Origin: Betaproteobacteria bacterium
GTDB lineage: Bacteria; Pseudomonadota; Gammaproteobacteria; Burkholderiales; SG8-41
Direction of reading: 5' to 3'
DNA: 57,895 nt
Assembly (NCBI GenBank): GCA_003820645.1
Contig: RPOR01000008.1
Coordinates: 1-57,895, forward strand
The notes beneath the pieces were generated by a model, which saw only the letters and a program-made list of their open reading frames with translations, did not search any database and was not told where the DNA came from. Numbering within the stretch: the first letter of the stretch is position 1; each line of letters opens with the position of its first letter. The position numbers and the translations under genes were made by a program. Of this stretch, positions 39,015-53,567 are shown in pieces.

Positions 39015-39902
39015 TCAGTAGGTGACGGTCAGGGTGTGCACATTGGTCCCCGCGCAGCTGGCACCGGCACAGGTACCCGCCTGGTTCGCGGGCATGGTAC
39101 CGTTGATGTAATAGGTCTGCGCGGAACCCGTGCCCGGGACGGGCCCGAACGGATGCACGCCGCCGCTGCTGGTCGTGTTCAGCAAGAGGGAATAATTCAG
39201 GCCGCTGACCGCGCCGCTATTGGCATCGAGCGACAGCGTGTACGGTGTCAAATTGGTACACGTCGTACTGAATGTCGTGTTGGCAAGATTCGCACTGCCT
39301 TGAAAGGCGGTGTAAGTGCCGAAATTCACGGTTCCCGGCGGCGTCGAAAACGTGCACCTGGGATTCACATTGATCGTGACATTGAAACTTTGCGGATTTG
39401 TGCCGGTTACGGTGATGGCGCCCGTAGTCACAATCGCGAGGGTCATGCTGACGAGGTCGGTGGAAGATCCCGCCGACGGGAAACCCGGCTGCGCTGCGGG
39501 TACGCAGCCGAAATAATTCAAGGTTTGGGAAATCGTAGCACCGCCTTTGCCGCCGGCAAAGCTGAAGGTACCCGCACCACTCCACGGGATTGTGCAGGAA
39601 CTGTCGGTATAGAGATCGTAGTTTATATTTCCTGCCGCACCCGTGGCCCGATTCTGCGCACCACTCGGATTCAGACCATTGTTGGGAATCACCGTGTAGT
39701 CAAAGGTGAGTCCCCCGCCACCGCCTGACTTGGTGCACGACACCGTTACCGACAGTGCGGTCGAGGAATTGCTCACATCCGAATAGATTTGGGTGTAGTT
39801 GGGCACTGTGCCCAGGCTGCAGGCAAAAGTCGCCGCTTGCGCACTACCGGCCACCAGCAGCAATATCGCGACCTGCAGCAGCCGCGCCCATGTCGATCTC
39901 AT
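39015..39902 (-). CDS. Two-domain spore coat protein U-like pilus tip protein (CsuE-like)
   Basis: A 295-residue secreted protein with a signal peptide (ending GSAQA) and two spore-coat-U (SCPU) domains; each starts with a Cys and the second ends with the C-terminal LTVTY strand that pairs with chaperone. Its size and place at the end of the operon resemble CsuE, the tip adhesin of archaic chaperone-usher pili. The start at 39902 overlaps the usher stop (ATGA). Confidence 0.85.
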   Translation of the reverse strand: MRSTWARLLQVAILLLVAGSAQAATFACSLGTVPNYTQIYSDVSNSSTALSVTVSCTKSGGGGGLTFDYTVIPNNGLNPSGAQNRATGAAGNINYDLYTDSSCTIPWSGAGTFSFAGGKGGATISQTLNYFGCVPAAQPGFPSAGSSTDLVSMTLAIVTTGAITVTGTNPQSFNVTINVNPRCTFSTPPGTVNFGTYTAFQGSANLANTTFSTTCTNLTPYTLSLDANSGAVSGLNYSLLLNTTSSGGVHPFGPVPGTGSAQTYYINGTMPANQAGTCAGASCAGTNVHTLTVTY

Positions 39903-42457
39903 CGTGCCACCCCTGTGCAAAGCAACGGCCCCACCCGCGGGATTTCGTCCGGTGTTGCCGCGGGCAGCCTCACTTCAAATTCGCATTGCTGATTTTTCCA
40001 GTTTAGCAGCACGCGATTGGTGGGCTGCAGTCCGGTGACAAAGGCTTCGCCGCGCCGCGCCACATAAAATTCCTGGTTGTCGCCCTTGATCTTCGCGATT
40101 GCGCCGGCGGGCGCGACATCGCCGTCATCGAATACGATCCTGAGCAGAGCCCCCTGACCCGTGCGCACCGGAAACACGACTTTGACCGCGCTGCGCCACG
40201 GCGGTACCGCAATCTGCTCGATCGAGTCGAGTTCCGCGCTGATCGGCAACTCGTTCGGATCGACGCGCACCGAGTTGTCCTGGTAAGCCATTAACCGCGG
40301 AATCAGCGCGATGCCATCGGCGTCGGTGTGGGTCAGGACCTGGCCGCCCAAACCGATTCCGACCCTGCCATAACCCGCAACTTCGGCCACGGCAAAACTC
40401 TGGTCGAGGCGGCGGGTCGCAAACAGGTGCCGGTCGGCGAACACCAGCCCGCCGGTCGCACCCAGTCGCACCGAGGTCTGATCATGCCCGGCGCTGACCT
40501 CGCCCGAAACCTGGCCGTAGCGTCCGAGGTAAGTCGCGCCGGCCTCCGCACGCTCACGGTCCTGCTGCTGCCCGGCCAGCAGGCGCCAGCCGAAGCCGGC
40601 GTCATTGGCGGGGCTCTCCGACACCGTCGCATACAGATCATTCTGCCCCTCGCGCACTGCCGCGTTGACGCTGGCAATGCGATACCCGCCCATGGGCACG
40701 ATCAGCGTAACCCCGACGAAATTGGCGCTGGCACCGGCGATGGCGCGGGTTGCGTTCAGGATCAGGCTGGCGCGCGCGCCGATGCGTATCGTATGGTTCA
40801 ATGAAGCGGTCGTCACGCGCTCGAAATCATAGCGGTCGATGCTCGCAAAACCCAGGCCGAACGTGCCTACGCCGTCGGTCGTGTACGTCCAGTTGCCCGC
40901 CACTTCCTGGCGGGTCGGCAACACCGTCTCGTCCAGCGCCAGGTTGCGAAAATCGCGCGTCGCCTCCTTGACCTGGACCTGCAGGCTGCTGCGCAAACCG
41001 ATGCGTTCCAGGCCCAGCAACCACGCACCGCCGCTGCCCCGGCGGTCATCCTGGCTCCCGACCCAACCGAATTTGCCCAGAAACTGGCCGGGGAGCGCGG
41101 ATGCCGCGCCCAACCATAATGTTTGCAACTGCGTGCCCGCATCGGCGCGGCCTTCCAGCGTCAACGCATCGTTATAGCCGTGACGCCACGTGCCGCTGAC
41201 AAAGCCGGTGTCGTAATTGCTGCTGTCCGTGCCGAGGTCTCGTCGCACGCCCCCTGCTTCGACGCGCCATTCGTCGAGCCCGGCGGCCAGCAACCGCGCG
41301 CTGGTGAAGAACGGTATGGTTGTCACCGTCTCCCGCCCCAAGACATCGCGCACCACCAGCTGCGCCTGTCCCCCGCCCGTCATCAGTGGAAAGTTGCCGA
41401 CGGTAAACGGCCCGGTCGGCACTCTGGAGCTCTGGCGCAGCACATCGTTGACATACAACTCGACGGTCGACGGCGCCTCGGACAAACCGCGGAAAATGGG
41501 CAGCGGCTGGCTGATGAATCCCGGCGTCAATGCGAAGTTGGTGCCGTACTGGATGCCGCCAAAATAGAAATCGCGCCCCAGCATGCCACCCAGCGAGGTG
41601 GTGTCGCCCAGGCGCAAGGTGTGGTTTTTGTCGGGGAAGTCTTTGGTAAACGTGGTTTCCAGGCGCGTAAAAGTGCGCGGCAGGCCGAGGGTATTGTCGC
41701 CCGTCAGATTACGCCCCACCGCGGTACTGGTCAGGACGCCCCACCCCGTTGAAAACCCCAGTTCGGTGACCAGCCCCAGATCCTGTGTCGAAGGGGCCTC
41801 GCGCAGCGCGGAGGTGGTGTAGCTCAGGTCGTAATTGAAAAATACGCTGGGCAGCACCGGGCTGACCACCGGCCGCTTCAACAGCGGTTGCGTCAGCCGT
41901 GTCGCGGCAAAGGCATCCGGCGAAAACAGCAATTCCACCGCCTGGTTGGCGGCGTCCAGCCTGACACGGTAGCCCGGTACGGCGGATAGCGGCAAATACG
42001 CCTCGCCGCGGAAATTGATCGCAGGCACACCGTCAGGCAGGGTCACCCGCCACTCTGCGAACGCATCGCGTGGCGCGTAGAGTTCGCCCGCGCGCTCCAA
42101 CAGCAGCCAGGTCCCGCTTTTCGCGCCATTGACAATGACTTCCAGCGGAGTCACGCGATCATCACCAGGCCGGGCGATGGCCGGCATCCTGCCCTCTGGC
42201 GGCTTGACTTCCTGAGCGAGGCGCAAATGCAGCGGCGGCTCGGGACTTCGGGCGCGACTGGCCGCTGCCGGGACCGCGGGCATTGCCGCTGTATCCGGTG
42301 TGGCCGACATCAGGGGCGCCGGCGACATGCGCAGACGCAACGGCGATTCAGTTACAGAACGCGGCTCAGCCGGCGAGGCAGGTTGTCCGGTTGCGTGGAC
42401 GATGCACGCAACAGAAGAGAAGGCCAGAAATAATAGGCACCGATGGAATATCAGCAA
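39899..42457 (-). CDS. Fimbrial outer-membrane usher (FimD/PapC family, archaic Csu type)
   Basis: An 852-residue usher with a signal peptide, an N-terminal chaperone-binding domain, a large beta-barrel/plug region and a C-terminal domain. Family segments include FFNYDLSY, GFISQPLPIFRGLSEAPSTVELYVND split over about 330-350, and GPFTVGNFPLMTGGGQAQLVVRD. It secretes and assembles pilins delivered by the chaperone. The start is a TTG at 42457, 1 bp after the chaperone stop, with no better alternative. Confidence 0.9.
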   Translation of the reverse strand: MLIFHRCLLFLAFSSVACIVHATGQPASPAEPRSVTESPLRLRMSPAPLMSATPDTAAMPAVPAAASRARSPEPPLHLRLAQEVKPPEGRMPAIARPGDDRVTPLEVIVNGAKSGTWLLLERAGELYAPRDAFAEWRVTLPDGVPAINFRGEAYLPLSAVPGYRVRLDAANQAVELLFSPDAFAATRLTQPLLKRPVVSPVLPSVFFNYDLSYTTSALREAPSTQDLGLVTELGFSTGWGVLTSTAVGRNLTGDNTLGLPRTFTRLETTFTKDFPDKNHTLRLGDTTSLGGMLGRDFYFGGIQYGTNFALTPGFISQPLPIFRGLSEAPSTVELYVNDVLRQSSRVPTGPFTVGNFPLMTGGGQAQLVVRDVLGRETVTTIPFFTSARLLAAGLDEWRVEAGGVRRDLGTDSSNYDTGFVSGTWRHGYNDALTLEGRADAGTQLQTLWLGAASALPGQFLGKFGWVGSQDDRRGSGGAWLLGLERIGLRSSLQVQVKEATRDFRNLALDETVLPTRQEVAGNWTYTTDGVGTFGLGFASIDRYDFERVTTASLNHTIRIGARASLILNATRAIAGASANFVGVTLIVPMGGYRIASVNAAVREGQNDLYATVSESPANDAGFGWRLLAGQQQDRERAEAGATYLGRYGQVSGEVSAGHDQTSVRLGATGGLVFADRHLFATRRLDQSFAVAEVAGYGRVGIGLGGQVLTHTDADGIALIPRLMAYQDNSVRVDPNELPISAELDSIEQIAVPPWRSAVKVVFPVRTGQGALLRIVFDDGDVAPAGAIAKIKGDNQEFYVARRGEAFVTGLQPTNRVLLNWKNQQCEFEVRLPAATPDEIPRVGPLLCTGVAR

Positions 42458-42458
42458 T

Positions 42459-43250
42459 CTATTGCGCGACGGGCCGCATATCGGGGATGGTCACGTTGTA
42501 GCTTTGCTTGGACCCGTCCACCAATGTCACGGAGAGCTTGGCCTTGCCGCCGGGGATGTTGCCGTCGGCGCGCTTGATTTCAAAATCACGCTTGATGCCA
42601 GGCAAGAGATACGCGCCGGAGTCCCGGTTGGCAACTTCTTGACCATTGTCCGCCACCAACGAAAACGCGATTGGATAGGCGTGGGCATTCCCGCTGTTTT
42701 CACAAACGGTCTTGATCGTGTTGTGCGCCACCCTTTCGACGCCACCACAAACCAGTTGCGCTTTGGCGCGTGGCGGCGTAATAAAAACCGGGATGGAAAA
42801 AGCCAGTGCCAGCTGCACCTGCAAGTTGTCTTTCGCCGGTACCGCTTCAGGTACTTCACGCACGATCATGCGGTAAGTCAGCTGTTCGGTCGGCATCGCC
42901 GTCTTCAGTCGCGCCAGCCGGACCACCTGCCGCGCCCTCGGCGCAAGTTTGATGATCGGGGGCGACAAAAAGATGTCTTCGGTCAGCGTAAGCTCGTCGG
43001 CGCCGCCGGGTTTTTGCTTCCATAAATACAGATCTGCCTGCATGACCAGCGGCTGATCTCCTTCATTGGTCACCGTCACCGCTATCGCGCGGTCCTGCGG
43101 AGTCATGTAGAGGCGTACCGGTGTGACCGAAAACTGGCCCGCCACCGCCGAGGGCAGGGGCAACGTCGCCATTAACAAACACAAAACGCCGCCGTTCAGA
43201 AGACGGCTCGGACCGTTGCTTGCGACTGCGGCCGAGGTTCTCATGATCAT
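42459..43250 (-). CDS. Periplasmic pilus chaperone (archaic CsuC type)
   Basis: A 263-residue chaperone with a signal peptide (ending SAVAG) and the PapD-like N-terminal domain starting FSVTPVRLYMTPQDRAIAVTVTN. The conserved RLARLKT and TYRMIVREVP segments are present. It donates a strand to SCPU-type pilins in the periplasm. The start ATG at 43250 shares its A with the preceding stop (TAATG). Confidence 0.87.
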   Translation of the reverse strand: MIMRTSAAVASNGPSRLLNGGVLCLLMATLPLPSAVAGQFSVTPVRLYMTPQDRAIAVTVTNEGDQPLVMQADLYLWKQKPGGADELTLTEDIFLSPPIIKLAPRARQVVRLARLKTAMPTEQLTYRMIVREVPEAVPAKDNLQVQLALAFSIPVFITPPRAKAQLVCGGVERVAHNTIKTVCENSGNAHAYPIAFSLVADNGQEVANRDSGAYLLPGIKRDFEIKRADGNIPGGKAKLSVTLVDGSKQSYNVTIPDMRPVAQ

Positions 43251-43690
43251 TACCAGGCGACTGTCATTTCGAGGTAATCCCGATTGGCCAGGTGGACCAC
43301 CCGCCACAGGGTCGTGGTGCCGATCCCCGGGCTGACGTCCACAGTTTCAAACCGGTTGCCCGATCGCCAGACCTCGGTCACGAAACGGTAAGCGCCACCG
43401 TGCATCGGCGACAACGGCGCCCCGGCGCGCCCCGGGGCAATATCCACCACCGCACCGGTCGCGCAGACGATGGTGGCCACGGCACCAAAGGCGAGGCCAC
43501 CGGGATCCGTTTGACAGAATGCCGATTCGGGCATTGTTCCGGCCGATTGCAGGGAGACCGTCACATGGAACTGGCCGCTCGTCTGACCGGCATGGCCCAC
43601 CGCGGCTCCCAGCATGAGCACGCTGGCGAGCACTAAACGTAGCGCATGACCCAGCCCGCGTTTACTCACCGGTGCGATGACCGTTTTCAA
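43250..43690 (-). CDS. Spore coat protein U-like minor pilin
   Basis: A 146-residue secreted protein with a signal peptide (ending GHAG) and one SCPU-like domain: early GQFHVTVSLQSAG, a Cys pair (in FCQTDP and VCATG) and the C-terminal strand YLEMTVAW. It is more divergent than the other pilins and resembles minor Csu pilins. The start is TTG at 43690, or GTG at 43669. Confidence 0.65.
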   Translation of the reverse strand: MKTVIAPVSKRGLGHALRLVLASVLMLGAAVGHAGQTSGQFHVTVSLQSAGTMPESAFCQTDPGGLAFGAVATIVCATGAVVDIAPGRAGAPLSPMHGGAYRFVTEVWRSGNRFETVDVSPGIGTTTLWRVVHLANRDYLEMTVAW

Positions 43691-43741
43691 CCGCCGTTAC
43701 TCCGACTGACCCAATAGTCCGGGTCCATGTTCATGCACCGT

Positions 43742-44248
43742 TCAGAAGTTGATGGTCAGCGTGCGCAGTTGTGGTGACGCATTTTGCGCCGGATTACCCG
43801 CTTGATTGGCGGCGATAGTGCCCGTAATCTCGAAAGGGACGGTATCCGCGGTACCAATCGAAGCTGCTGTCGCAGCAGTTCCTGCAACGACCGTCTGTGG
43901 CGTCGCGGTAATGGAATATTGCAGCCCTTGAATCACGCCCGCGCCGACGGCATTGGTGTTCGCGGCCGCGGCAGTGGAATCGGGCGCCGCAGTGTCAAAA
44001 TTTGCCGTAATACCCGTCAATCCGCGCGTGCAGCTGAAATTCGCCGTAACCGGTGTCGCATTAACTGCAGCACCAAAAGCAGTATAGGTGCCAAAAGCCA
44101 GGTCGCCGATTGCGCCCACCGTGCACGCCGAGGTCAATGCGACGGTGACGTTGAAATTACCCGATGCAGTTGCCGCGTGGGCCGCTGGGGTGATGCCGGT
44201 AAACAGCGCAACCGCGATCAAGCCACGCAAATATTTTCGAATGCTCAT
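43742..44248 (-). CDS. Spore coat protein U-like major pilin (CsuA/B-like)
   Basis: A 168-residue pilin with a clear signal peptide (ending AHAATA), then an SCPU domain with the early strand NFNVTVALTSACTVG, the FGTYTAFGAAVNATP motif and the final LRTLTINF donor strand. A paired Cys lies in ACTVG and SCTRG. It is the first gene of the pilus operon and probably the main shaft subunit. AGGAG lies 8 bp before the ATG at 44248. Codon use is more AT-rich than in neighbouring core genes. Confidence 0.87.
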   Translation of the reverse strand: MSIRKYLRGLIAVALFTGITPAAHAATASGNFNVTVALTSACTVGAIGDLAFGTYTAFGAAVNATPVTANFSCTRGLTGITANFDTAAPDSTAAAANTNAVGAGVIQGLQYSITATPQTVVAGTAATAASIGTADTVPFEITGTIAANQAGNPAQNASPQLRTLTINF

Positions 44249-45154: not shown

Positions 45155-46162
45155 CTAACGGTCGGGGGTCGGCGCTGCATGCTCGGGCTTGGCACCGCGG
45201 GCAAGCATTTCGCGGGCAACCTCGGCAGCGCTCCCGGGTCTTTCCAGGACCCGGCATACCGCATCGGTAATCGGCATGTCGATGCCGCGCTCGTGGGCGC
45301 GGCGCCGCACTTCGCCGGCGGTGAACACCCCTTCGGCGACGTGGCCGAGCCCGGCCTGCACGTTAGCCGCAGCTTCGCCACGCGCGAGCGCCAGGCCAAC
45401 CCGGCGGTTCCGCGACAGGTCACCGGTGCAGGTGAGGATCAGATCACCGACCCCGGCCAGGCCCATGAAGGTTTCCGCGCGACCACCCAGTGCCACTCCG
45501 AAGCGCGTCATTTCCGCGAGTCCGCGCGTCAGCAATGCCGCACGCGCATTAAGACCGAGGCCCAGTCCGTCGCAAACACCTGCAGCGATCGCGATTACAT
45601 TCTTCACCGCGCCGCCGACCTCGACACCAATCACGTCGTCATTCGAATAAACCCTCAGCGTCGGTCCGTGCAACGCCTGCGCTGCGGCTACCGCCAGCGC
45701 ATGGTCAGCCGCCGCCAGCGTCAGCGCAGTCGGCAGGCCGCCAGCGACCTCCTGTGCAAAACTCGGACCCGAGAGCACGGCGCCACTCGCACCGGCGCTC
45801 ATTACCTCGGCAAAAACCTCGTGCGGCAGGCGGGCGTCCGGACGCTCGAAACCCTTGCACAGCCAGATCACCGGCGTATCGCAGCGCAAGTCGCGGATCG
45901 CACGCAGCGTCGCCCGCAAACCCGCAACCGTCACGGCGACAATCACATAGTCGCTGCCGGCAAGCGCGCGACGCAGGTCCGCATCCAGACGCAATGCTGC
46001 GGGGAACGCACAGCCCGGAAGGTAGCGTTCATTGGTGCCGCGACCGCGCATCGCGTCGACCTGCAGCGGGTCACGCGCCCACAGCGTAACCGTGTTCCGG
46101 GCCGCGAGATTGATCGCCAGCGCAGTACCCCAGGCGCCGGCACCGAGTACCGTGATATTCAT
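45155..46162 (-). CDS. gpsA: Glycerol-3-phosphate dehydrogenase [NAD(P)+]
   Basis: A 335-residue GpsA that supplies sn-glycerol 3-phosphate for phospholipids by reducing dihydroxyacetone phosphate. The N-terminal Rossmann motif GAGAWGTALA is intact, the VLSGPSFAQEVAGGLPTA region follows, and the active-site Lys lies in VGGAVKNVIAIAAG. It follows the SH3 protein gene in the secB-grxC-rhodanese block. Confidence 0.96.
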   Translation of the reverse strand: MNITVLGAGAWGTALAINLAARNTVTLWARDPLQVDAMRGRGTNERYLPGCAFPAALRLDADLRRALAGSDYVIVAVTVAGLRATLRAIRDLRCDTPVIWLCKGFERPDARLPHEVFAEVMSAGASGAVLSGPSFAQEVAGGLPTALTLAAADHALAVAAAQALHGPTLRVYSNDDVIGVEVGGAVKNVIAIAAGVCDGLGLGLNARAALLTRGLAEMTRFGVALGGRAETFMGLAGVGDLILTCTGDLSRNRRVGLALARGEAAANVQAGLGHVAEGVFTAGEVRRRAHERGIDMPITDAVCRVLERPGSAAEVAREMLARGAKPEHAAPTPDR

Positions 46163-46691: not shown

Positions 46692-47159
46692 TCAGCTTGG
46701 CGTGCCGGCCTTCGCCGCCTGCTCCTGCTGCAACTGGCGCATGCGTTCCTGGTAGGCCGCATCGAAATTCATGTGCTGCAGCAGCACCGGGGGGAATCCC
46801 GCACGCGCCATCACGCTCGCCACCGCTTCGCGCGCATAGGGCAACAGCGTGTTCGGACACAATACGCCGAGCACCGCATCGAGTTCCTGCGGCGGCAGGT
46901 GGAGGATCCGGAAAATCCCGGCCTGCCCGACTTCCACCAGAAATACCGTCTTGTCCTTGAGCTTGGCGGTGACGGTGACCGTGAGCACGGCCTCATAAAG
47001 CCCGGCCTGGTCGATGGCGCCGGCGCCGTTGTGGACGCTGATCTCGATCTGCGGGGTCTCGCGCTCGAGGAATACCTGTGGCGCGTTGGGAATTTCCAGC
47101 GACAGGTCCTTCAGATAAATCTTCTCGATACCGAACTGCGGCTGTTGCTGCTCACTCAT
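46692..47159 (-). CDS. secB: Protein-export chaperone SecB
   Basis: A 155-residue SecB homotetramer subunit that keeps preproteins unfolded and passes them to SecA. The family IYLKDLSLEIPNAP segment is near the start, and VEVGQAGIF, LLPYAREAVASVMARAGFPPVLLQHMNFDAAYQER occur in pieces through the second half. It is followed by the SH3 gene with a 6-bp gap. Confidence 0.97.
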   Translation of the reverse strand: MSEQQQPQFGIEKIYLKDLSLEIPNAPQVFLERETPQIEISVHNGAGAIDQAGLYEAVLTVTVTAKLKDKTVFLVEVGQAGIFRILHLPPQELDAVLGVLCPNTLLPYAREAVASVMARAGFPPVLLQHMNFDAAYQERMRQLQQEQAAKAGTPS

Positions 47160-47203: not shown

Positions 47204-47461
47204 TCATGCCGCGAGCAGCGGATCGAGCTTGCCGGCGCGGTCGAGCGCAGACAGATCATCGTAGCCGCCGACATGGGTCTCGCCAATGTAGATCTGCGGC
47301 ACGGTGCGCCGCCCAGTTTTTTCCATCATCTCGCTGCGCTGCGCCGGATCAAGATCCACGCGGATCTTTTCGATCTCGGTCACACCCTTTTCACGCAACA
47401 GCCGTTCGGCCATCTGGCAATAAGGACAGACAGCGGTGGAATACATGCGGACTTTTGCCAT
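47204..47461 (-). CDS. grxC: Glutaredoxin 3
   Basis: An 85-residue glutaredoxin with the dithiol active site CPYC (residues 12-15), the TVPQIYIGETHVGGYDDL segment typical of GrxC, and a cis-Pro. It reduces protein disulfides with glutathione. It lies between secB and the membrane rhodanese, 17 bp from each side of the latter, so it likely shares their transcript. Confidence 0.96.
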   Translation of the reverse strand: MAKVRMYSTAVCPYCQMAERLLREKGVTEIEKIRVDLDPAQRSEMMEKTGRRTVPQIYIGETHVGGYDDLSALDRAGKLDPLLAA

Positions 47462-47478: not shown

Positions 47479-47925
47479 TTATCTTTTCTCGAGCGGCAGG
47501 CTGGCCTGCTGCCAGCCAGCGATGCCGCCGGTCAGATTGACGGCTTCGTTAAAACCATTGCGGCGCAGCACCTGCACGGCGGCACTGGAACGCATGCCGG
47601 AATGGCACACGACGATGAGCGGCCGGCCCTTGAATTTTTCCATTTCCTTGAGGCGCTCGGCGAGCTGCTTTTCCGGCACATGCCTGGCACCGGCAATATG
47701 CCCGGCCTCGAATTCTCCGGTATCGCGCACGTCGATCACCAGCGCGTCCTTGCGGTTGATCAGTTGCACGGCTTCGACCGCGCTGACTTCGCGGCCGGCA
47801 CGGAACGGTCGCATCACCAATGGCCACAACAGCATCACGCCGGTGGCCACCGCGCCGCCGAACAGCATCATGTTGAACGGGCTTTTTTGCAGAAAAACGA
47901 AGAACGCTTCCATGGAACCAGTCAT
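47479..47925 (-). CDS. Membrane-anchored rhodanese (sulfurtransferase)
   Basis: A 148-residue protein with an N-terminal transmembrane helix (about 18-38) and a single rhodanese domain. The active-site loop is CHSGMRS, keeping the persulfide-forming Cys and the CxxxxR pattern. It likely moves sulfane sulfur in the cytoplasmic-facing or periplasmic membrane surface. The ATG at 47925 overlaps the stop of a small upstream open frame (ATGA); ATG at 47913 is an alternative. The nearby ArsR regulator suggests sulfide-related control. Confidence 0.9.
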   Translation of the reverse strand: MTGSMEAFFVFLQKSPFNMMLFGGAVATGVMLLWPLVMRPFRAGREVSAVEAVQLINRKDALVIDVRDTGEFEAGHIAGARHVPEKQLAERLKEMEKFKGRPLIVVCHSGMRSSAAVQVLRRNGFNEAVNLTGGIAGWQQASLPLEKR

Positions 47926-48146
47926 CTTTGTCCCGGGACGGGAACGGCGGATTCTATCAGAGGACGGCAAGGCTCCGGGTCGCAGCCGGCCAGCCACGCC
48001 AGGTCCCGGTGGAATTCGGCGGCGGCCGCCGGGTATTCGCAGCGGGCCAACCCGCCATGCCTGGGGCTGCTGACACCATCCGGGTTCAACTGCGCCAGCG
48101 CGGCAGCAAACACCCTTTGGCGGAACACGCCGGCAGCGGACAGCAA
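47922..48146 (-). CDS. Short hypothetical open frame between arsR and rhodanese
   Basis: A 74-codon frame, TTG start at 48146 or GTG at 48128, filling nearly all of the 228-bp gap between the ArsR gene and the rhodanese. Its stop overlaps the rhodanese ATG as ATGA. It contains three cysteines (ARCEYP, GCDPEPC) and an LNPDG-RHGGL segment, and the third codon positions are GC-rich in the middle, as in real genes. I do not recognise it; it may be spurious. Confidence 0.35.
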   Translation of the reverse strand: MLSAAGVFRQRVFAAALAQLNPDGVSSPRHGGLARCEYPAAAAEFHRDLAWLAGCDPEPCRPLIESAVPVPGQR

Positions 48147-48153
48147 CGACCCG

Positions 48154-48480
48154 TTACTTGTCCGGCCCGCAAAACATTTCCCGCATCATGCCGATCAGTG
48201 TCAGCGTGCGCTCATCGCTGATGCGGTAGAACACGCGATTGGCGTCCTTGCGCGTGCGCAGCACGCCCTTTTCGCGGAGGATGGCAAGATGCTGGGAAAT
48301 GTTGCTCTGGGACGTGCCAACGCAATCGACGATTTCCTGTACGCTGACTTCTTCGCCGCCGAGCACGCACAGTATCTTCAGACGCAGCGGATGGGCCATT
48401 GCCTTCAACGCGCGGGAAGCCTGGTCTATATGCTCCTGCCGTTCGAGCAACTGTTCGCGCACTGCGACTAAATCGGTCAT
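48154..48480 (-). CDS. ArsR-family regulator, BigR/SqrR-like (persulfide-sensor type)
   Basis: A 108-residue winged-helix regulator with the recognition helix in TSQSNISQHLAIL (about 56-68). Cys38 (ILCVL) and Cys104 (EMFCG) are 66 residues apart, the same spacing as the sulfane-sulfur sensing pair of BigR and SqrR; an extra Cys53 is present. It has no arsenic-type ELCVC motif. It likely represses itself and the genes leftward (rhodanese, grxC). The ligand is inferred from residue spacing and neighbours. Confidence 0.82.
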   Translation of the reverse strand: MTDLVAVREQLLERQEHIDQASRALKAMAHPLRLKILCVLGGEEVSVQEIVDCVGTSQSNISQHLAILREKGVLRTRKDANRVFYRISDERTLTLIGMMREMFCGPDK

Positions 48481-48518
48481 GAGTCTCCCCGTGCAGCCCG
48501 GATCTGGTGAAATGAACT

Positions 48519-48544
48519 AGAATTATACTGTATCATAATATTCT
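48519..48544. promoter_or_regulatory. Putative ArsR operator overlapping the arsR promoter
   Basis: An AT-rich inverted repeat: AGAATTAT, eight bases, ATAATATTCT (GAAT...ATTC outer arms; ATTAT-N8-ATAAT inner arms). It covers a perfect TATAAT (-10, minus strand, 48522-48527) about 40 bp before the regulator's ATG, so repressor binding would shut off its own gene; it also lies in the divergent gpmI upstream region. Confidence 0.5.
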
Positions 48545-48562
48545 TAAATTGCCATTAAAATC

Positions 48563-50098
48563 ATGAACATAACCCCAGCGCTGCTGGTGATCCTCGACGG
48601 CTTCGGTTACCGCGAGGCCTGCGACGACAATGCCATCTGCCAGGCGCGCAAACCGCACTGGAACTTTCTGTGGAAAACCTGCCCGCATACGGTCATCGAT
48701 GCGTCCGAAAAATGGGTCGGACTGCCGGCCCTGCAGATGGGCAATTCCGAAGTCGGCCACATGAACATCGGCGCGGGCCGCGTGGTCTACCAGGACTACA
48801 CGAAAATCGAGCATGCGATCGAAACCGGGGAGTTCGCCGGCAACGCCGTATTCCACGCCGCGATCGACAAGTCCCGCTATGGTGCGTTGCATGTGCTCGG
48901 CCTGCTGTCGCCGGGGGGCGTGCACAGCCATGAATCGCAGATTCACGCGCTGCTCGACCTCGCCGCTCAGAACGGCGCGCAACAGGTCTATGTGCATGCC
49001 TTCCTCGACGGCCGCGATACGCCACCGGAAAGCGCCGCAGCCTCGCTGACGGCGCTGCAGGAGAAATGCGCAGTGCTGGGGCAGACCCGCATTGCCTCGA
49101 TCTGCGGCCGCTATTACGCGATGGACCGCGACCAGCGCTGGGAGCGCCTGCAGACTGCCTATGACCTCATTGTCGATGGCATTGCGCAGTTTTCCGCACC
49201 CGACGGGCTCGCCGGCCTGCAAGCGGCCTACGCGCGCGGCGAAACCGATGAGTTCGTCAAGGCCACCGCCATCGTAGCCGCGGATAGGCCCGCCGTGCGC
49301 ATCAACGACGGCGATGCGGTGGTGTTCATGAATTTCCGCTCCGATCGCGCGCGCCAGCTCACGGCAGCGCTGACCGACCCCGGTTTCTCGGGCTTTGCGC
49401 GCAAACGCACCCCGCGGCTCGGTTATTTCTGCACGCTGACCAGCTATGGCGACGATTTCAGCCACATTCCGGCGGCCTTCGGTCCGCAGCAGATCCGCGA
49501 CGGTTTCGGCGAATATCTGTCCAAACAGGGCCTGCACCAGCTGCGCATCGCCGAAACCGAAAAGTACGCGCATGTCACCTATTTCTTCAATGGCGGCGTG
49601 GAAACGCCATACGCCGGCGAAGACCGTATCCTGGTGCCGTCGCCCAAAGTCGCCACCTACGACCTGCAGCCGGAAATGAGCGCGCGCGAAGTTACGGACA
49701 GGCTGGTGGCCGCGATCAAGTCGCGCCGTTATGACGCCATCGTCTGCAACTATGCCAACGGCGACATGGTCGGGCACACCGGCAACCTGGCTGCAGCGAC
49801 CCGCGCCATCGAGGTGCTCGATGAGTGCATCGGGCGGATCGTCGAAGCCATGCGCGAAATCGGCGGCGAAGTGCTGATCACCGCGGATCACGGCAATGCC
49901 GAAACCATGCGTGATCCGGAGTCCCGCCAGCCGCATACCGCGCACACGCTCAATCTGGTGCCGTTGCTCTATATCGGGCGCAAGGCACGCATCGCCGAAG
50001 GCGGCGCACTGCAGGATGTCGCACCCACGCTGCTGGCAATCATGGGTCTGCCCAAGCCCGCGGCAATGACGGGGCACTCGCTGCTCGAGTTTGCGTGA
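48563..50098 (+). CDS. gpmI: 2,3-bisphosphoglycerate-independent phosphoglycerate mutase
   Basis: A 511-residue manganese-dependent iPGM interconverting 3- and 2-phosphoglycerate in glycolysis and gluconeogenesis. The alkaline phosphatase-like catalytic Ser is in LQMGNSEVGHMNIG, and the metal-binding VLITADHGNAE and MTGHS segments are present. It is divergent from the ArsR gene and overlaps the following envC-like gene (TGA/GTG). Confidence 0.97.
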   Translation: MNITPALLVILDGFGYREACDDNAICQARKPHWNFLWKTCPHTVIDASEKWVGLPALQMGNSEVGHMNIGAGRVVYQDYTKIEHAIETGEFAGNAVFHAAIDKSRYGALHVLGLLSPGGVHSHESQIHALLDLAAQNGAQQVYVHAFLDGRDTPPESAAASLTALQEKCAVLGQTRIASICGRYYAMDRDQRWERLQTAYDLIVDGIAQFSAPDGLAGLQAAYARGETDEFVKATAIVAADRPAVRINDGDAVVFMNFRSDRARQLTAALTDPGFSGFARKRTPRLGYFCTLTSYGDDFSHIPAAFGPQQIRDGFGEYLSKQGLHQLRIAETEKYAHVTYFFNGGVETPYAGEDRILVPSPKVATYDLQPEMSAREVTDRLVAAIKSRRYDAIVCNYANGDMVGHTGNLAAATRAIEVLDECIGRIVEAMREIGGEVLITADHGNAETMRDPESRQPHTAHTLNLVPLLYIGRKARIAEGGALQDVAPTLLAIMGLPKPAAMTGHSLLEFA

Positions 50099-52814: not shown

Positions 52815-53567
52815 ATGAACGACGACCAGTTGCTGCGCTACAGCCGGCATATCCTGCTGCCGGAGATCGGCATTGAAGGCCAGCAGAGGCTGCTCGACGC
52901 CCACGCGCTGCTGATCGGCGCAGGCGGCCTCGGTTCACCGGCAGCCCTGTATCTTGCGTCGGCAGGCGTTGGCACGCTGACGATCTGCGACGGCGACAGC
53001 GTCGACCTGACCAACCTGCAGCGCCAGATCGTGCATCGGCATGCGGCGATCGGCATCAACAAGGCCGAGTCGGCGCGCACCACATTGCACGGACTCAATC
53101 CCGGGATCCGGGTGACTGCACTGGCGGAACGCGTCGCGGGCGACCAGCTGCAGCGCCTGGTGGCCGCCGCCGACGTCGTACTCGATGGCAGCGATAATTT
53201 CGCGACCCGGCACGCGGTCAACCGCGCCTGTGTGCAGGCACGCAAACCGCTGGTATCCGGCGCCGGCATCCGCTTTGACGGCCAGTTGGCGGTCTTCGAC
53301 CTGCGCAGCGCGAGTTCCCCGTGTTACGCCTGCCTGTTTCCGGAAGCCGGAGAGACCGAGGACGTGCGCTGCGCGGTGATGGGGGTATTTGCCCCGCTGG
53401 TCGGCATCATCGGGGCGATGCAGGCGGCCGAAGCACTGAAAATCCTGACCGGCGCCGGGGAACCGCTGACCGGCCGGTTGTTGCTGCTCGATGCGCTCGA
53501 CATGGCCGTACGCACCGTCACGCTGCAGCGCGATCCGGCCTGTCCGGTGTGCGCCGCGCGCGGTTAG
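52815..53567 (+). CDS. moeB: HesA/MoeB/ThiF family adenylyltransferase
   Basis: A 250-residue E1-like enzyme that adenylates the C-terminus of a ThiS- or MoaD-type sulfur carrier. The nucleotide motif is GAGGLGSP, the catalytic-type Cys lies in DVRCAVMG, and two zinc CxxC pairs are present (CYAC and CPVC). No C-terminal rhodanese domain. Whether it serves molybdopterin or thiamine synthesis cannot be decided here. Confidence 0.92.
   Translation: MNDDQLLRYSRHILLPEIGIEGQQRLLDAHALLIGAGGLGSPAALYLASAGVGTLTICDGDSVDLTNLQRQIVHRHAAIGINKAESARTTLHGLNPGIRVTALAERVAGDQLQRLVAAADVVLDGSDNFATRHAVNRACVQARKPLVSGAGIRFDGQLAVFDLRSASSPCYACLFPEAGETEDVRCAVMGVFAPLVGIIGAMQAAEALKILTGAGEPLTGRLLLLDALDMAVRTVTLQRDPACPVCAARG

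Follow-up and report, generated by a model that had tools for sequence, protein, structure and literature searches.

A gene for a small ArsR/SmtB-family regulator lies between gpmI and a rhodanese gene in the window, by which we mean the whole stretch of 57,895 nucleotides that was analysed, and its place at a housekeeping locus raises the question of what the regulator senses and which genes it would control. The earlier note on this DNA proposed a persulfide sensor that binds an inverted repeat at its own promoter. We consider it reasonably probable that the protein is a repressor from the group of dithiol ArsRs that sense reactive sulfur, with YgaV, BigR, SqrR and HlyU as representatives, and that it is encoded by the first gene of a yibN-grxC-secB-gpsA unit opposite gpmI-envC. 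The sensor half of this reading is well supported because the cysteines align with those of known sensors, the pair is invariant and the gene is under purifying selection; its action as a repressor, its site on the DNA and a shared transcript that spans the gap behind arsR are all predicted. On the minus strand arsR is followed by a 0.24-kb gap and then by the rhodanese gene, grxC, secB, a gene for an SH3 protein and gpsA, and opposite arsR lie gpmI, envC and the gene for a CtpA-type protease (Table 1). ORFs and profile scores bear out the earlier assignment of the CHSGMRS rhodanese, GrxC, SecB, GpsA and GpmI to these places. The start codon of the rhodanese was picked by likeness to relatives and its membrane anchor was judged by eye.

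Table 1. Features of the arsR locus and its divergent promoter region, in window coordinates
Feature	Position	Strand	Basis
GpsA	45155..46162	(-)	NF000940 463.9 bits, cut-off 202
SecB	46692..47159	(-)	TIGR00809 153.7 bits, cut-off 102.8
GrxC (glutaredoxin 3)	47204..47461	(-)	TIGR02181 117.9 bits, cut-off 90
Rhodanese, membrane-anchored, single-domain, CHSGMRS, YibN-like	47479..47913	(-)	PF00581 79.2 bits
O-antigen-ligase-like gene remnant	47946..48047	(-)	34 aa, 56% identity, E = 8e-8, C-terminal part of L003 protein
ArsR/SmtB-family regulator, 108 aa	48154..48480	(-)	ORF, PF01022 and HTH_metalloreg
Conserved GTATAATTCTAGTTCATTTC segment, divergent gpmI // arsR-yibN promoter	48509..48528	(-)	alignments
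Proposed inverted repeat	48520..48543	(.)	unsupported as operator
TATAAT -10 element, arsR (ancestrally yibN) promoter	48522..48527	(-)	sequence
Best match to family-wide motif ATTTTAnTATATT[CT], not significant	48536..48549	(-)	score 8.2, P = 0.17 vs local shuffles
GpmI, divergent neighbour	48563..50098	(+)	TIGR01307 702.7 bits, cut-off 330.65

The winged-helix profile PF01022 (HTH_5) scores 43.5 bits on the window ArsR at a Pfam cut-off of 22, which places the protein in the ArsR/SmtB superfamily. Its only cysteines are residues 38, 53 and 104. As the earlier note had observed, Cys38 and Cys104 are exactly 66 residues apart, the spacing of the pair in BigR and SqrR, and the arsenic-sensing C-V/A-C motif of alpha-3 was looked for in the protein sequence and is absent. 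Among structures in the PDB the best scores belong to BigR (66.6 bits), YgaV (66.4) and 5znx together with two HlyU chains (64 to 64.5), followed by SqrR entries at 58.7 bits (6o8l and others, which we take to be Rhodobacter SqrR), NolR at 57.2, and SrnR at 48.4 with others below. Five alignments, with BigR (3pqj), YgaV (3cuo), the two HlyU chains and 5znx, each set Cys38 and Cys104 on cysteines of the known protein, and the two residues thus form an alpha-2/alpha-5 pair; these helix positions come from the aligned solved proteins and not from a model of the window ArsR itself. AlphaFold gave a weak model (pLDDT 69.9), which was set aside. The score ranking among PDB structures is in line with a place beside the known sensors; a tree of the ArsR with reference sequences gave long branches and mixed placement and was too weak to use.

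The pair was followed in a wide set made up of the window and its best 80 loci from the genome collection (81 sequences), in which both Cys38 and Cys104 are invariant (81/81). In the same set the recognition-helix stretch 56-69 is invariant save for positions 61 and 67, each with one deviating sequence. A family sample of 60 genomes, the window's own counted, gave both cysteines in all 17 loci L085-L101, four of which (L090, L092, L093 and L100) duplicate the wide-set loci L006, L007, L008 and L081 by an exact 120-nt probe. The window ArsR is under purifying selection, as pN/pS against eight relatives is 0.09-0.20. One orthologue, L102 (G048), may be decaying; two in-frame TGA codons are reported for it, and its aligned residues, 2-77, contain none and do not allow position 104 to be judged.

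The third cysteine bears on a different sensor, in which the same two cysteines, or Cys53, would form a disulfide or bind a metal or metalloid in place of sensing persulfide. The codon of Cys53 (48322-48324) stands at the start of the HTH, and the residue is kept in 16 of 19 window-family loci, window counted (L085-L098 and L102). A general metalloregulator model, HTH_metalloreg, is also the sole NCBIfam model that exceeds its own cut-off on the window ArsR (86.8 vs 55). Both points speak for a redox or metal sensor, whereas C53 occurs in just 7 of the 81 wide-set sequences, the CXC motif is missing, and ArsRs with an alpha-2/alpha-5 dithiol fall in the reactive-sulfur cluster (SSN cluster 4) in the part of PMC10509353 that describes it. 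We therefore regard a redox or metal sensor as distinctly unlikely. Cys53 is specific to a lineage and might serve to tune the sensor. The window ArsR is most likely a reactive-sulfur-sensing repressor, and sulfur sensing is likely from its homology with the proteins compared below.

Among the closest known systems is YgaV of E. coli, a dithiol ArsR that is 38.5% identical to the window ArsR in a 96-residue alignment in which both cysteines match, and whose gene is directly upstream of the sulfurtransferase gene ygaP in the ygaVP operon. YgaV is a sulfide-responsive repressor of its own operon that forms a tetrasulfide bridge, as described in parts of PMC9774250. The two loci differ in that the window rhodanese is YibN-like and not of the YgaP type (it is 41.7% identical to YibN of E. 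coli across 96 residues and 33% identical to YgaP across 100), that the window locus is the gpmI // yibN-grxC-secB-gpsA unit, and that the SqrR-like site reported for YgaV was not found in the window's intergenic region. Xylella BigR, which heads the PDB ranking, has the same cysteine pair, but the window ArsR reaches only 78 of the 155 bits required by NF040642, the NCBIfam BigR equivalog, and is not assigned to it. The sulfurtransferase/dioxygenase of the BigR operon (Blh, ETHE1-like) is likewise missing from the nine neighbours scanned. Rhodobacter SqrR has cysteines at two matching places in the aligned stretch; unlike it, the window has no ATTC-N8-GAAT site between arsR and gpmI (the best candidate has two mismatches, equalled by 42% of shuffles) and no sqr among the scanned neighbours. 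In Vibrio cholerae HlyU the aligned pair even bears the identical numbering Cys38/Cys104, as given in part of PMC4330345, and tetrasulfide formation is persulfide-specific according to the pertinent part of PMC10509353. HlyU differs in being described as a transcriptional activator, in its locus, and in a 17-bp site for which the best intergenic match in the window has seven mismatches. The same cysteine pair is found in H. denitrificans SoxR and sHdrR and among the dithiol ArsRs surveyed by Li et al. (2025). Unlike the SoxR/sHdrR case, the window's genome (92% complete) gave no match above cut-off for SoxB, nor for the bifunctional sulfurtransferase/dioxygenase.

The earlier note had taken the downstream rhodanese and GrxC as consistent with sulfane sulfur handling, and had remarked that ETHE1, SQR and a sulfite exporter are missing nearby. 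The latter holds for the nine neighbours scanned together with the ArsR (44.6-52.7 kb). The former is right as to the presence of the two genes, but the argument drawn from them is weak because genomes that lack the regulator show this arrangement too. In E. coli K-12 the order is trmL, cysE, gpsA, secB, grxC, yibN // gpmM, envC, with no ArsR in the yibN-gpmM interval, and the rhodanese/grxC/secB order also recurs in many relatives that lack ArsR. The neighbours are thus inherited housekeeping synteny and not regulon evidence.

Other genes in the surroundings were also recorded. A ThiF/MoeB-type protein (52815-53567 (+), PF00899) is a further gene of sulfur-transfer type in the neighbourhood, and most of the best 80 relatives with a long enough contig have it at the matching flank of gpmI-envC-CtpA. 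A chaperone-usher cluster with Usher, PapD_N and spore-coat-U domain proteins occupies 39899-44248 (-). Elsewhere, PF04143 (YeeE/SoxT-like sulfur transport) has matches in G000 at C119:6278-7282 and C16:31297-32574; on C16 there are two matches, both partial, and an in-frame TAG lies in one of them.

The two sides of arsR behave differently among the window and its best 80 loci. Upstream, the nearest recognised gene is gpmI in 53 of the 81 and envC in 25, while in the other three nothing was recognised before the contig end; in some of the envC-nearest loci envC is more than 900 nt off, with space for one more gene between. Downstream, the first recognised gene is the rhodanese in 28 of the 81, window counted, commonly no more than about 45 nt from the end of the ArsR match, with tight adjacency in Rhodocyclales. 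An O-antigen-ligase-like gene comes first in six loci, and none was recognised in seven, some of which end early. RND efflux genes come first downstream in 40 of the 81 (L009, L012 and L017 included) and belong to two different sets, a membrane-fusion/RND pair in 22 and an outer-membrane-factor/fusion/RND set in 18. Pfam matches of the downstream genes are HlyD and ACR_tran in L017, OEP, HlyD and ACR_tran in L009, and Wzy_C and Wzy_C_2 in L003.

The ligase-like gene accounts for the gap behind arsR. It stands between arsR and the rhodanese gene in L003-L008, and matches downstream of arsR are present in the genus members L085-L088 and L091. The gene has been lost in the window's lineage and is retained in close relatives, and the 0.24-kb gap is what it left. 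The rhodanese is probably the next gene after arsR in one transcription unit.

An ArsR orthologue stands beside gpmI in 18 of the 59 other genomes of the family sample, and in 5 of 12 in the genus. Loss of the ArsR seems to recur because three ArsR-less genus members (L114-L116) retain, by eye, the leader down to the apparent former start codon.

We then considered the DNA that the regulator would bind. The earlier note had placed an autoregulatory operator at the inverted repeat and had rightly seen that it overlaps a perfect TATAAT; the promoter scan called no good -35 for the arsR promoter on the minus strand. No single register pairs both arms as they were written. Pairing is complete for ATTAT-N8-ATAAT, whereas the register of the 24-mer pairs 7 of 12 positions. 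Within the 60-bp AT-rich block one 5+5 repeat is observed vs a mean of 1.25 after shuffling (P = 0.62), so the symmetry is at chance level. Nine close ArsR sequences, six of the genus and L003-L005, were then compared. Five of them (the window, L086, L087, L003 and L004) have the left arm, GAATATT, and four (L085, L088, L091 and L005) lack it, whereas the right part, TATAATTCTA then CATTTC, is present in all nine.

This right part is not tied to the regulator. Related forms of the GTATAATTCTAGTTCATTTC segment occur in ArsR-less relatives: ATT[CT]TA with CATTTC is found in five of six readable ArsR-less genus members, the sixth, L124, having ATTTTAATATATTT, and TATAAT itself is not kept in them. 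Outside the genus, TATAATTCTA itself is found in ArsR-less members of other genera in which the rhodanese gene directly follows (L137, L140, L148 and L161 among others). Twelve genomes have no ArsR match at all, and ATT[CT]TA stands upstream of gpmI, by eye, in nine of the ten that were readable (two were not). Over the family loci ATT[CT]TA occurs in 13/18 with ArsR vs 21/35 without, and TATAATT[CT]TA in 9/18 vs 10/35. The plain reading is that the conserved part would be the core promoter of an old divergent unit, used by arsR.

That the repeat is the autoregulatory operator of the ArsR, with secB, gpsA and gpmI as the target set, is in our judgement very unlikely. The overlap with TATAAT, the left arm shared by five of the nine close sequences and a best, non-significant family-motif match that overlaps this arm speak for it, and they are set against the chance-level symmetry, the left arm missing from the other four, a conserved part that in related form is common to ArsR-less genomes, and the lack of both the SqrR and the HlyU site. 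As an operator the repeat is not supported, in view of its chance-level symmetry, its partly unconserved left arm and the persistence of the overlapped promoter segment without ArsR. An AT-rich divergent promoter can look like an operator when the comparison leaves out relatives without the regulator.

Symmetry was no better a guide in the wider set. In only 3 of the 81 loci of the window and its best 80 did the top 18-bp palindrome ahead of ArsR score above locally shuffled sequence (P <= 0.05), and symmetry alone gives no support for an operator. An EM motif search first caught the coding start of gpmI, and the sequences were then trimmed. Trained on 74 distant ArsR loci, with the window and L003-L008 excluded, the search returned ATTtTAttATaTtt with a score of 538 vs 87-101 for shuffles, and a forced-palindrome motif reached 331 vs 55-70. 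The strength of the motif is conservation among related loci and is partly the promoter itself. Of the duplicated loci L006, L007, L008 and L081, only L081 was in the training set, and its repeat L100 was outside the test set.

For the family comparison L100 was dropped from the ArsR set as its gpmI-side promoter match was unreadable, L125 and L164 were dropped as the gpmI start was missing, and 4 of 34 genomes were dropped for want of a gpmI match. The motif reached P <= 0.05 vs shuffles in 10 of 18 ArsR loci and 16 of 35 ArsR-less loci, with median scores of 12.9 and 6.9. Across the family's other genera, the 12 loci with ArsR had higher motif scores than the 29 that lack it (Mann-Whitney P = 5e-4, kinship uncorrected), whereas in the window's genus the two groups of six were close (P = 0.06). 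Eight window sites score at least 8.2, the site in Table 1 counted. A family operator that overlaps the promoter probably exists, yet it is not recognisable in the window.

Copies of these sequences were sought elsewhere in the window's genome. The earlier note had suggested a search for further copies of its operator, and one copy alone was found at up to three mismatches, as was the case for the GTATAATTCTAGTTCATTTC segment. The family motif has five matches with two mismatches vs two for the reversed control, and ORF inspection of the five showed no evident sulfur gene. These results bear on whether a sulfur-sensing ArsR has its targets elsewhere in the genome, its gpmI/yibN position being inherited and without regulatory meaning in the genus. 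The persistence of the neighbours and related promoter forms without ArsR, the family motif that is not recognisable in the window's genus and a downstream neighbour that differs between lineages all fit such an arrangement. We nevertheless hold it to be rather unlikely, if less so than the other alternatives, since neither window sequence has a second genomic copy, the two-mismatch sites lead to no evident sulfur gene, in 78 of 81 loci the first gene recognised on the upstream side is gpmI or envC, and ArsR regulators often act locally, as part of PMC12423496 states for bacterial regulators in general.

A dithiol sensor that acts at its own locus is thus the reading that we prefer. On homology with YgaV and HlyU, which parts of PMC9774250 and PMC10509353 offer as models, the ArsR homodimer, when reduced, would occupy AT-rich DNA in the -10/+1 region of the arsR/yibN core promoter. 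On exposure to persulfides or polysulfides, a polysulfide bridge would join Cys38 in alpha-2 to Cys104 in alpha-5, the DNA would be released, and more of the regulator itself and of the co-transcribed rhodanese would be made. Co-transcription of the rhodanese with arsR is plausible, and the rhodanese is the likeliest co-regulated gene because in many Rhodocyclales loci it comes about 30-45 nt after the end of the arsR match. An effect on gpmI could follow as well, since a mere 82 bp separate the start codons of arsR and gpmI and their promoters point outwards from a shared region; like secB and gpsA, gpmI is a candidate only. A wider control, in which glycolysis (gpmI), envelope maintenance (envC), glutaredoxin, export by SecB and GpsA would stand under reactive-sulfur control through an ArsR at the gpmI // yibN promoter that was repeatedly lost, and in which the slot in sister lineages would have taken up an O-antigen-ligase-like protein and RND pumps of two kinds as further sulfur-responsive cargo, strikes us as quite doubtful.

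Dithiol ArsRs beside rhodaneses and RND pumps have been reported before, and the window ArsR is one more protein of this established type. Rhodanese and RND genes are named as likely targets of dithiol ArsRs in part of the survey by Li et al. (2025, PMC12423496), rhodanese neighbours are also described in part of PMC10509353, and the rhodanese and RND genes of the survey are the two commonest contexts among the window and its best 80 loci. Searches of an open-licence library brought up no paper on an ArsR encoded beside gpmI and yibN, and the gpmI // yibN position goes unmentioned in section 2.1 of PMC12423496. The organisms that carry the ArsR among the best 80 loci include Thiobacillus, Sulfuricella and Sulfurimicrobium, along with others. 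These three genera oxidise sulfur. The variable downstream slot, with its rhodanese, two kinds of RND pump and ligase, offers a natural comparison of the range of control of the sensor. If persulfide is what the protein senses, the reactive-sulfur sensors would gain a branch that is widespread in betaproteobacteria and has its place at a housekeeping locus that is itself conserved.
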